Shown here one piece after another: positions 10,335 to 53,052 of a stretch of DNA of 64,000 nucleotides. A program made the translations under genes and the position numbers. Within the stretch, counting starts at the first letter, position 1. Each line of letters begins with the position of its first letter. The stretch comes from Metallosphaera tengchongensis (lineage in GTDB: Archaea; Thermoproteota; Thermoprotei_A; Sulfolobales; Sulfolobaceae), in assembly GCF_013343295.1 (NCBI RefSeq), contig NZ_CP049074.1, forward strand, positions 1,283,501-1,347,500. Direction: 5' to 3'. The notes below the pieces were generated by a model. The model searched no databases, had not been told where the DNA came from, and was given only the letters and a program-made list of their open reading frames with translations.

Positions 10335-10912
10335 GAATACATCGATACTACATAAATAATAAACTTAACCCAAATATACTCTCTCTTTATCATTAGATTC
10401 ATTTTTAACCGACTTGTCAAATTTATTATTAGATATTGACACAATTTCAAGAAATAAAGTCACGTTCAATAGAAGGGTATTCTACAACTAACTCATGACA
10501 AAGGGAGGGCAAACCTCGCCCTTTAGGGCGGGGAGGAGGTCAGTTACTCCTTACTTTAAAGGTCAGCCTCATCCTTTTTGTCAAAGATCAAGGAGACGTT
10601 CCAATTTTCCTGTTCCTCCGTTCATCCATTTCTCCACCGGGGAAATGGACTTTAGATAACAGGTGTTACTGCGAACAAAGGATCGTATCTATATCATGAC
10701 TCCTTTAGTTTATTCAAGTTTAAGATAAAGTCTGTAGTGTCTAAGCCCCTGGACAATATGTACAGCACAGGTAGATGACTCTATCCCCACTTACATCCTC
10801 GAAGAACCTGGATTGAAAGCGAAAGCAATAATAGATAAATTAGATTTAAAATTTTAAAAACAAATAACTTACCATACTTTGCGATATTTGCAATCAATAT
10901 GATATAGAAATT
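10335..10912. other. Gene-free stretch with IS debris
   Basis: No open frame of convincing quality. It contains one clear copy of the GTCAG hairpin (10511-10545). The A/T-rich right part flanks the doxA terminator. Confidence 0.5.
10511..10545 (+). repeat. GTCAG hairpin, solo IS200/IS605-type right end
   Basis: The best copy of the dispersed element: a CCTCGCCCT / AGGGCGGGGAGG stem-loop followed by AGGTCAG. I interpret it as the sub-terminal hairpin and cleavage end of an IS200/IS605-type element whose body is gone. Confidence 0.55.
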
Positions 10913-42546: not shown

Positions 42547-42988
42547 CAATTAAACGTAGTTAAAGATAAAGCTTTTAAATAGTATAAATAGGCGTTGAGC
42601 CTAGTTGAGGAAATTCAACTAATGACCTATACTTCTAGTTCAGTTGTTTAATATCTATCTTATCCCTGTGGCTATTGAGTGTACATGGGGGCGGAACTGT
42701 ATGGTCAGAACATGCTACCAGTCTCCATAATAGACAGTAACTTCCTTTTGGATGATTTTACCCTGGCCTTCCGTATTCTTGAGATAGGCATATGAAGTGG
42801 GACGAGTATTAAATATAGGTCTAGCCATAAAGACCTTCATGGACGATTAATTTCACTGATATTTTAATAAATTATACACCTTGCCTTTTATTGGACTAAG
42901 TACTGCCGTAGTGAGCAGTTTCAGTGAGAGTATTAAGCCTGAGAGTATTAAGCCTATATAACTCCATCTAATGTTTTTACATAATGCC

Positions 42989-43194
42989 GGATGTGGGTAT
43001 GTATCCCGAAAGGCTTGCATATGAACAGCCCAAGATGTGCGGGTTCCCCCACTTACACGGTATCCCGTCTAGGTGGGTCGGGGTTACCCCTTGGGGCGGA
43101 GGAGGGTGAAGGAAGGCCCGCTCGACTCCCGTGAAGCCCAAGGGTTGAGGATTGATATCAAGTTATATGAGATCCGATGAAACCCAAACCCCTT
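42989..43194 (+). pseudogene. IS607-type tnpB 3' end plus right end (solo fragment)
   Basis: From 43034 to 43194 the sequence matches the last part of tnpB and the right end of the IS607-type element at 50.8 kb with about five substitutions and two small indels (roughly 95 % identity by eye). Just before it, 42989-43012 matches part of the zinc-ribbon coding region; the sequence between is deleted. The shared part stops at CCCCTT in both loci. No TnpB protein can be made here; only the region that would encode the guide RNA remains. Confidence 0.8.
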
Positions 43195-43235
43195 AACTAC
43201 TGCCCAAATAGCTCTAATTGTTGATAAAAGAACAG

Positions 43236-43270
43236 CGAACCTCACCCTTTAGGGCGGATAGGAGGTCAGT
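43236..43270 (+). repeat. GTCAG hairpin, solo IS-type right end
   Basis: GCGAACCTCACCCTTTAGGG followed by CGGATAGGAGGTCAG; an intact stem-loop core and the terminal GTCAG. Confidence 0.5.
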
Positions 43271-43441
43271 TCCTGGAGTTTCAATAACTGAAATGAATTA
43301 TGTTTACTATCTTCTTAGAGCAATTGAGAAGGGCTTGCAGTCAAGTCTCAATGAAATCAAGTAAAACCATCCACTCGTGAATTTTTAATTTCCATGTAAA
43401 TTTAAGCAAGTTAGGTGGTAATCATATGTCAAAGGTGGTTA

Positions 43442-50659: not shown

Positions 50660-50807
50660 TTTGGATCGCCCTAATTTTCCTCCTTGATTCCTCTATCCTT
50701 CGCTTTGCCATTAACTTAAACTCCTCAGCACTAGTCCTAACCCTTGCGTATCCAAGTTCCACGCTCTTCACGGCTACTGCTGAAGCAACGTCGTAGAAGG
50801 GGTTTGG
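50649..50807 (-). pseudogene. Malic enzyme, C-terminal remnant
   Basis: An open frame of about 52 codons reads DPNPFYDVASAVAVKSVELG and ends before a TAG at 50649. This resembles the C-terminal end of NAD(P)-dependent malic enzymes. It stands on the same strand as the N-terminal fragment at 52666-53052, on the other side of the insertion element. The part between the two (I estimate about 250 codons) is missing. Confidence 0.65.
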
Positions 50808-50810
50808 GTC

Positions 50811-52142
50811 TCATCGGATCTCATACTTGATATCAATCCTCAACCCTTGGGCTTCACGGGAGTCGAGCGGGCCTTCCTTCATCCTCCTCCGCCCCATTAG
50901 CGGGGTAACCCCGACCCACCTAGATGGGATACCGTCTAGGTGGGGGAACCCGCACATCTTCAGGTAGATGTTCAGGGAAGCGTTCAACTGCCTGTCTAAC
51001 TTAAACCCACACCTCTGACAGACGAAGGTCTTACCTACCTTTCGGGATACGTACCCACATCTGGGGCAAGACCTTGAGGTAAGGTATGGGTTGACCTCGA
51101 GGACGCGAGAACCATAAAGCGGAGCCTTGTACTTGAGTACCTTGTGAATACTCCTCCACACAGTTCTCGAGATCTTCCTAGACAGCTTACCGCTAGCGTC
51201 CTTAAACATGCTCTGCTTGTCCAGTCTCTCGACTGCGAAGGTTGTCAAGGGGTATAGCTCAAGTAGGGCGTTGACAAACTTATGCACATAGTCCAGGACC
51301 CTGTGCCTCTCGCGGTGGGAGTACTTCCTCAACAGCTCTCTCCCCCTCTTACCGTGCTTTGACGCGAAGGACTGTACCTTCCCCTTCTTCTTTACTATGC
51401 TATACTTCAGGGAGTATAGCCCCTTCAGGGAGAAGGTCACGAACTTCTCACCGTCGTAAGCGTCTAGCGTGGAGAGGTTTGAGTCTACTGCTAGGAAGTC
51501 TAAAGGGGTCTGTGTAGGAGCTTTATAACGGAAGGGTAGGTACACCTTGTCCTCCTTGATCACTGGCTCACCGAGCTCTAGACCATTAACCCTGTCCTTG
51601 AACCATTCCTTCCCCCACGAAAAGGTCAAGTACTGGTGAGGTCTGACCGTGACCCTTACCTCGTCGTTGACCACCTTCCTGAGCGTAGACTTAACCCTAA
51701 CGTAAGCTCTCTTCAACCTAGGCTTTCCTAGGGACACCCTACCCTTTATCGCCCTCTTCCTCCACGACTTCAAGACCGAGAACGCGTCGCTAATTGCCTT
51801 GTCTACGTAGTGTGATGCCAGTGGGTTCACCTCCTCTAGCCCTTCCCTCAACCCCTTGTACACCTCTTTCTTTTTTGGTATAATCACCTTCACTCTCTTG
51901 TGACGACCTCTCTTGACTGTGGTACTCTCTGTTTCTACCCTTGTCTTGTTCCACAGGTAGTCTAGCGCTTTGCCCAACAGTTTCTTATACTCCCTTATCA
52001 AGAGGAGTGTCTCTTCCTTCTTGTCGTTCTTGACAGCGTAAGTCAGGTAGATGGACTCCTCTGGCGGTGCGAAGCTGTTAATCCTTAATCTCCTCGACGC
52101 ACTCCTCCACCTCCTCGTACTACCTAGTACCATATAACTCAC
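50811..52142 (-). CDS. tnpB: TnpB RNA-guided nuclease of an IS607-type element
   Basis: 443 residues. RuvC catalytic residues are all present: Asp220 (FLAVDSN), Glu305 (FAVERLDK), Asp383 (KLDRQLNAS). The zinc ribbon is Cys359/362/375/378 (CPRCG, CQRCG). TnpB proteins cut DNA with a guide RNA (omega RNA) made from the 3' end of their own gene and the right end of the element. The start is uncertain (GTG 52142 or ATG 52133) because the frame overlaps the end of tnpA. Apparently functional although the transposase is dead. Confidence 0.85.
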   Translation of the reverse strand: MSYMVLGSTRRWRSASRRLRINSFAPPEESIYLTYAVKNDKKEETLLLIREYKKLLGKALDYLWNKTRVETESTTVKRGRHKRVKVIIPKKKEVYKGLREGLEEVNPLASHYVDKAISDAFSVLKSWRKRAIKGRVSLGKPRLKRAYVRVKSTLRKVVNDEVRVTVRPHQYLTFSWGKEWFKDRVNGLELGEPVIKEDKVYLPFRYKAPTQTPLDFLAVDSNLSTLDAYDGEKFVTFSLKGLYSLKYSIVKKKGKVQSFASKHGKRGRELLRKYSHRERHRVLDYVHKFVNALLELYPLTTFAVERLDKQSMFKDASGKLSRKISRTVWRSIHKVLKYKAPLYGSRVLEVNPYLTSRSCPRCGYVSRKVGKTFVCQRCGFKLDRQLNASLNIYLKMCGFPHLDGIPSRWVGVTPLMGRRRMKEGPLDSREAQGLRIDIKYEIR

Positions 52143-52625
52143 TCACTGAAGGGCGAAAGTATTGCGATTAGACCCTCGAGCAGCTCATGCTCTAGGCCTT
52201 GTCCTCTCCCTCAAGACCTGGACCCCGCATTTGTGTGCTTCACACACCCCCTCCACTACCTCAAATCCAAACCCACTGGCCTGTCCCTATACGCGGCTTT
52301 AGAGACCTAGTCGTAGAGGGCCCTCAGTCTATGGGGCCTCCCTCTCCACGTCTAAGCTTTAACCAACATCAGTGACGGTGAGGCCGTATTCCTTCACCTT
52401 TCCTTGCAGGTAAGGGACCTGTCTTAGCCCTTCTTTTTGTGTACCTGAGACACTCTAGCGTAGAGGACCTCCCCCTTTTTCACTGTTCCCACTATCCTCC
52501 CCACGTCCTCCCTAAACATTTACCGCCCTCTAGGACGACTGGCTCTACCTTACCCTGTTTAACTTAAGTCCAAGAGTATAGTAAGACATTCCTAGTCTTT
52601 CGCATACTCCCTTTGTTCTCAGCAC
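52085..52625 (-). pseudogene. IS607-type serine recombinase TnpA, degraded
   Basis: From a GTG at 52625 the frame reads LRTKGVCERLGMSYYTLGL (the MerR-like DNA-binding start of IS607 TnpA) and then meets a stop. Further pieces in other frames include VLYARVSQ near 52448-52468, which holds the catalytic serine motif of serine recombinases, and YEEVEECVEEIKD at the end before a TAA at 52085. Several stops and frameshifts rule out activity. Confidence 0.8.
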
Positions 52626-52665
52626 TGTGTAAGATATTGATATGGAATTATATAAATTTTACGAG

Positions 52666-53052
52666 TTAACGGAAACCGTTGACAACGGCTGGCTCTAAAG
52701 CCTTCACCACAGATACTATCGCATCCTGGTCCTTAACAGCTATCGGTAAGGGAAAGGCGTCGACTCCTCCAAGGTACTTGAAAAGTAATGCTTTCCCTTC
52801 CATCACAGGCATTGAAGCCTCAGGACCTACGTTCCCGAGACCTAAGACCCTAGTACCATCGGTCACTATTCCAACGGAGTTCCACCTACTGGTCAGCTGG
52901 AAACTCTTCTCCCTGTCCTTGGAGATCTCTTTAACCACTTCCGCCACGCCAGGAGTATAAACAACAGAAAAGTCGTCATAACTGTTCACTGGGACCTTTG
53001 GAAGTATCTGAATCTTCCCCTGATATTTTAAAGAAACTTCCACGGAATTCAT
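52666..53052 (-). pseudogene. Malic enzyme, N-terminal fragment
   Basis: 128 codons. [63 protein letters not shown]-type sequence and [10 protein letters not shown] are the N-terminal domain of NAD(P)-dependent malic enzyme (malate to pyruvate and CO2). The frame ends at [11 protein letters not shown]; normal enzymes continue from LEP with FGGINLEDI and the NAD domain. The final few residues come from the inserted element. No active enzyme can be made from this locus. Confidence 0.85.

Follow-up and report, generated by a model that had tools for sequence, protein, structure and literature searches.

About 25–30 small transposons in the genome of Metallosphaera tengchongensis lack both protein genes of their parent family but carry a promoter and a TnpB guide-RNA gene. 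They share one anatomy, have arisen repeatedly, show covariation in an RNA hairpin and coexist with intact TnpA and TnpB genes in the same genome. With rather more confidence than doubt, these protein-less copies, in the following termed solos, are interpreted as non-autonomous IS607 elements which carry their guide in cis and rely on TnpA and TnpB supplied in trans, a reading for which we infer transcription, loading, cutting and benefit. The focal copy lies in the window, i.e., the whole stretch of 64,000 nucleotides that was analysed (positions 1283501–1347500), and the genome searched comprises 2,176,897 bp in one contig.

Table 1. Features of the focal solo and of its parent element (coordinates within the window).
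Feature	Position	Strand	Details and basis
Solo (protein-less) IS607-derived element, focal copy, subfamily a	42905..43192	+	288 bp; alignment of ~30 own-genome copies, sharp ends
Focal left end, GCCGTAGTGAGCAGTTTCAGTGAGAG	42905..42930	+	Common to full element (at 52689) and solos of other genera; empty-site argument
15-bp tandem duplication, GAGAGTATTAAGCCT twice	42926..42955	+	Sequence; spacing table; found in the focal copy alone
TATA-like box, CCTATATA; family consensus TTTATATA	42953..42960	+	At most 2 mismatches in 39/43 elements, nearly always at 33 nt from left end
P1 hairpin; conserved apical part 42990–43012, GATGTGGGTATGTATCCCGAAAG	42979..43023	+	Covariation across lineages; apical substitution deficit
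Guide-RNA core and right end, homologous to tnpB 3' end of full element	43032..43192	+	93% identity to 50797–50960
P2 hairpin (CCCCAC..GTGGG)	43047..43077	+	Own versus swapped arms; arms overlap in some short variants, hence weaker than P1
Inferred guide TTAACTACTGCCCAAATAGC, the right insertion flank	43193..43212	+	Right-end boundary; unique in genome at up to 3 mismatches; no exact viral-contig match
Full-length IS607-family element, same family as solos	50799..52689	-	Both ends common to solos
Intact tnpB, 443 aa, candidate trans-acting nuclease	50811..52142	-	Pfam PF07282, PF01385; NCBIfam guided_TnpB 118 bits (cut-off 100)
Decayed IS607 tnpA	52145..52628	-	IS607-like start, many stops; tblastn match with 8 stops

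Anatomy and dispersal of the solos

The focal locus had been noticed as a fragment about 95% identical, by eye, to part of the element at 50.8 kb. This estimate was close, as BLASTN aligned 43032–43194 with 50797–50960 on the minus strand (155/167 identities, 93%, 7 gap columns, E ~3e-64). A second block, 42990–43013 against 51038–51061, matched at 23 of 24 positions, and the focal copy lacks the 77 bp of tnpB that separate the blocks in the full element. Homology and the position at the tnpB 3' end and right end support the earlier view of the segment as a TnpB guide-RNA (omegaRNA or reRNA) unit without its own tnpB; likewise, the intact TnpB 8 kb away and the variable sequence after the conserved end were confirmed. 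The boundaries required revision. The element begins at 42905, the left end common to the full element having been overlooked, and the conserved end (AAACCCC) lies at 43192 instead of 43194, with four C nearly invariant across 45 copies and the next base merely T-biased (30/45). The guide would therefore start at about 43193.

A whole-genome search with the fragment returned 40 matches (E ≤ 1e-15), many of which extend over the internal junction seen in the focal copy, and the fragment is therefore not a single decayed copy; instead of one orphan locus, it represents a dispersed non-autonomous IS607 family. At least 24 two-ended copies of the 288-bp type occur in this 2.18-Mb genome. Random decay of one element, formerly the simple alternative, cannot account for a set of more than 24 copies that belong to several deletion classes and all have promoter, P1 and core. 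Of the earlier interpretation, the TnpB guide-RNA unit thus stands, whereas the singular orphan with a remote target is not supported. The copies follow a shared plan, in which a sharply bounded left end is followed by a TATA box in constant position, the 5' hairpin P1, the guide-RNA core and a sharp right end with unrelated flank beyond it, and they fall into three related internal classes, a (including the focal copy), b and c. Their left end, about 85 bp upstream of the fragment start noted earlier, reads GCCGTRGTRAGCAGTTTCAGTGAGAG, then TTTATATA. At this boundary, CC is found at positions 2–3 (43/43 and 42/43) and is preceded by G in 37/43 copies; at the right boundary, four C are kept in 43–44 of 45 copies with near-random sequence beyond. 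Flanks are unrelated between copies on either side, and no consistent orientation of the solos relative to neighbouring genes was found. The guides in the right flanks of the focal copy (L001) and of L002 look alike (TTAACTACTGCCCA, TTAACCACTCCCCA), which may be chance among many pairs. Since copies differ from their consensus by ~6%, the amplification was not recent. Both parent ends, missing transposase genes and dispersed copies characterize the solos as non-autonomous IS607 elements; the ends, GCCGTAGT.. and ..AAACCCC, are not inverted repeats, so that they are not MITEs in the strict sense.

The parent element is assigned to IS607 by its serine recombinase TnpA, intact homologs of which occur in this genome (G000); in a relative, an intact TnpA homolog (L088) reached 187.7 bits to NF033518 (cut-off 110), i.e., IS607 transposase. 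The 443-aa TnpB features the RuvC D/E/D residues (by eye) and is similar to the TnpB structures 8bf8/8h1j. An autonomous element of this genome is intact, encoding a TnpA of 194 aa and a TnpB of 432 aa; an intact tnpA at 2143752–2144258 is directly followed by the intact 432-aa TnpB, and a second intact tnpA (480087–480587) is situated just upstream of the solo L002. With intact TnpA and TnpB found, the trans factors exist in this genome. At the L002 locus (480087–481264), tnpA lies ~0.4 kb upstream of the solo, which is 5 bp from another TnpB-type right end.

Promoter, RNA structure and target site

Almost all copies, irrespective of genus, have the start of the TATA-like box 33 nt from the left end. 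The box is within 2 mismatches of the consensus in 39 and within 1 mismatch in 31 of 43 elements, the latter compared to 2% of flank windows taken at random. Where the element is full-length, the start codon of tnpA follows ~23 nt after this box, a spacing expected for leaderless archaeal mRNA. Judged by this arrangement, a solo RNA from the former tnpA promoter would start just before or close to P1. In the focal copy, the 15-bp duplication shifts the box from +33 to +48 according to the spacing table.

In the solos, P1 is built of an arm, CCAGATGTGGGTATGTATCCCGAAAGG and a second arm, the arm pairs being, among others, GTCTTACC/GGTAAGA, CTTGCTACC/GGTAGCAAG, TCACACC/GGTGTGA, CCTTACC/GGTAAGG and GTCCTGCC/GGTAGGAC. 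Across 11 lineages, own arms pair at a mean of -12.5 kcal/mol, swapped arms at -7.9 kcal/mol (permutation p = 5e-5; none of 20,000 shuffles was as good). Hence the arms diverge between lineages while staying paired, which is covariation. Arm swaps of P2 gave a similar result, which is given less weight as its arms overlap in some short variants. Many elements with full-length tnpB likewise contain P1, placed in the zinc-finger codons, some of them carrying the arms AAGTCCTGCC/GGCAGGACTT and others AGGTCTTGCC/GGTAAGACCT; the distance of P1 inside the right end amounts to ~190 nt in the solo and ~270 nt in the full element. These tests were run on anchored arms, since the variable hairpin arms were out of register in the MAFFT alignment given to RNAalifold, which returned next to no covariation term. 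Among own-genome class a copies, the apical P1 segment accumulated 4/276 changes versus 118/1848 downstream (Fisher p = 0.0003), i.e., the loop changes ~4.4-fold less than the sequence after it; a weak trend in the same direction was seen in the related genome G015 (5/184 versus 45/912).

Accordingly, the family features a conserved RNA structure, as evident from the P1 and P2 arm swaps and from P1 in full elements, but the focal P1 itself is weak, class a stems are weak as a class, and one locus (L144) has no clear P1 stem. The fold energy of the focal copy is ordinary and no better than that of shuffles (z = -1.16), and single-sequence fold energy was judged uninformative for this element. 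Rfam gave no match to RAGATH-18 or sotRNA at E ≤ 1 within 42800–43400; weak matches to HgcC and KCNQ1OT1 were far below threshold and were rejected. With its shifted TATA box and weak P1, the focal copy may be inactive even if the family works.

The target site was approached by a tnpB-bearing IS607 copy of this genome (L081, ~2028998–2030888) which lies inside a gene for a secreted phosphoesterase-like protein; most relatives have an intact version of this gene. Homologous proteins show EQ[AV]P-x-LWDYAEEY, and the interrupted gene reads EQAP, then GCC and the element up to AAACCCC, followed by CTATGG. As a single codon has to stand between P and L to maintain the frame, the simplest form of the uninterrupted site is CCA-GCC-CTA-TGG. 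From this one copy and the homologs of the gene, GCC would belong to the target, and its CC would probably be the 2-bp core; at the focal left end, GCC is correspondingly read as the target base G plus this core. In a vacated site, GCC would thus lie to the left of every guide as a putative adjacent motif. A nucleotide search with joined flanks retrieved no empty sites, intergenic DNA being too diverged between species.

Recurrence in related archaea

Matches were obtained in 20 of 31 genomes of the family Sulfolobaceae. Two-ended Tnp-less elements of the same build occur in seven genomes besides this one (G015, G014, G007, G020, G017, G002, G010), of which G015 contains about ten, of classes a and b; in the other six, solos were found by taking matches without a nearby tnpB. 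The loci L127–L131 and L133–L140 are right-end fragments for which no convincing left end was found. Deletion junctions differ between the solos of these other genomes, e.g., GGTAAGAC/AATCTACC, GGTGTTGAG/ATACAGG, GGTAGCAAG/ATGTTACAC and GGTGTGACGGTGAACTG, and the deletions therefore do not look like a single event, which suggests that related archaea arrived at this reduced design more than once. Despite the different junctions, the left end, the TATA box at +33, P1, the core and the right end were retained nearly every time. In G015, the cognate TnpB is reduced to a 51-aa remnant beside the ten solos; solos thus outlive their nuclease, and some copies are relics.

A further pattern was observed in the Metallosphaera yellowstonensis-like genome G010 (L091, L094–L097, L100), where many tnpB copies share 4-nt-type losses inside P1. 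The stem is still paired, while the reading frame would shift. In addition, tnpB matches stop near residue 374 in many copies of this genome, the RNA being kept and the protein apparently broken.

Interpretation and relation to known systems

TnpB takes its guides from the right flank, recognizes a motif beside the left end and is thought to aid transposon persistence (PMC8612924, PMC10278001, PMC11061315). A solo would keep the parts needed in cis. These are the two ends used in recombination, the promoter that once served tnpA and an entire TnpB guide-RNA gene, for which the DNA on its right provides the guide. The solo would be moved by TnpA, the serine recombinase, from autonomous relatives, and an RNA starting near P1 would be bound by TnpB supplied in trans. 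The complex could then recognize and cut the vacated insertion site (GCC plus guide), upon which the copy would be restored from the sister chromosome. Solos would keep the RNA gene and lose the proteins because the guide alone is copy-specific and TnpA and TnpB are obtainable elsewhere.

It is a serious, if unlikely, prospect that the solos, here and in relatives, are guide-RNA elements which once worked and are now dead. The divergence of ~6% from the consensus, the promoter duplication of the focal copy together with its weak P1, and the loss of TnpB in G015 would fit such a history, but this genome still encodes TnpA and TnpB in one intact element as well as another intact TnpB, and the apical loop is still depleted of changes. 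Ordinary MITE-like deletion derivatives moved by TnpA, in which the guide-RNA part persists without function as it overlaps the right end needed by the recombinase, are considered rather unlikely. Sharp ends, missing protein genes, the intact TnpA of this genome and the ten solos of G015 without cognate TnpB are all consistent with them. However, P1 is placed ~190 nt inside the right end and changes in sequence while its pairing persists, whereas a DNA-binding site would conserve sequence; moreover, the TATA position and the short distance from TATA box to P1 recur across lineages. Since a deletion MITE needs only its ends, yet promoter and RNA were repeatedly retained, a role at the RNA level is argued for. 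Host-adopted trans guide RNAs aiming TnpB at viruses, plasmids or genes, akin to the guide with its own target proposed in the earlier note, would explain a different guide in every copy but are highly improbable, as guides equal insertion flanks, the focal guide has no second genome match at up to 3 mismatches and its exact 20-mer, the one guide searched there, is absent from viral contigs. A flood of 15-mer matches of the focal guide in viral contigs looks like chance and was set aside.

Beyond the non-autonomous elements of this genome, it is conceivable, though held here with somewhat less than even confidence, that IS607 elements of the Sulfolobaceae were repeatedly stripped to a promoter and guide RNA between two ends and persist via the TnpB of other copies. 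Such guide-only transposons would amount to a homing system divided in two, with the guide in cis and a nuclease shared in trans. If TnpB guards the transposon by cutting the vacated site, protein-less copies need only their own guide RNA, a prediction that is now testable. The repeated origin of the minimal unit further offers a natural deletion experiment on which guide-RNA parts matter (P1, core, right end), and if function is confirmed, the solos would provide compact archaeal TnpB guide scaffolds that work separately from tnpB.

IS607 TnpB guide RNAs, archaeal omegaRNAs and Sulfolobus MITEs have been described (PMC11061315, PMC8612924, PMC10278001, PMC12558985, PMC3718332). With IS607 elements using TnpB and RAGATH-18-derived guide RNAs, the present family shares the serine-recombinase TnpA, TnpB, a right-end guide RNA, a guide from the right flank and a motif recognized beside the left end; in contrast, the RNA here overlaps the tnpB reading frame and has no RAGATH-18 match in Rfam, the solos lack both proteins, and the motif is putatively GCC instead of AG-rich (PMC11061315). 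As in IS200/IS605 omegaRNAs including archaeal sotRNAs, the RNA overlaps the tnpB 3' end and enters the right flank, but the recombinase family is another one and the RNA is also found in protein-less units with a promoter-like left end (PMC8612924, PMC10278001, PMC12558985). The Sulfolobus MITEs SMN1 and SM3A are likewise short protein-less repeats of Sulfolobales thought to be moved in trans, but they have been described as dependent on the transposases of ISC1733 and ISC1058 without mention of a guide RNA, SMN1 being set apart by description (PMC3718332). Literature text searches, with thin coverage of subscription papers, retrieved no description of protein-less IS607 guide-RNA elements. 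Nearest in kind are bacterial PATEs and stand-alone HEARO/IscB omegaRNAs, which belong to other families but are likewise related to RNA-guided transposons and devoid of protein genes.

Besides the solos, a second dispersed, hairpin-forming repeat of ~48 bp (TGAYAAARGAACRGCAAACCTCGCCCTTTAGGGCGGGGAGGAGGTCAG) was observed at 43221–43270 and 10514–10543, with 39 genome matches, and one copy begins ~28 bp after the focal element. Among 20 sampled copies, three are located behind tnpB-like sequence and most others are solo with unrelated flanks. It constitutes a REP/PATE-like family whose end resembles an IS200/605 TnpB right end.
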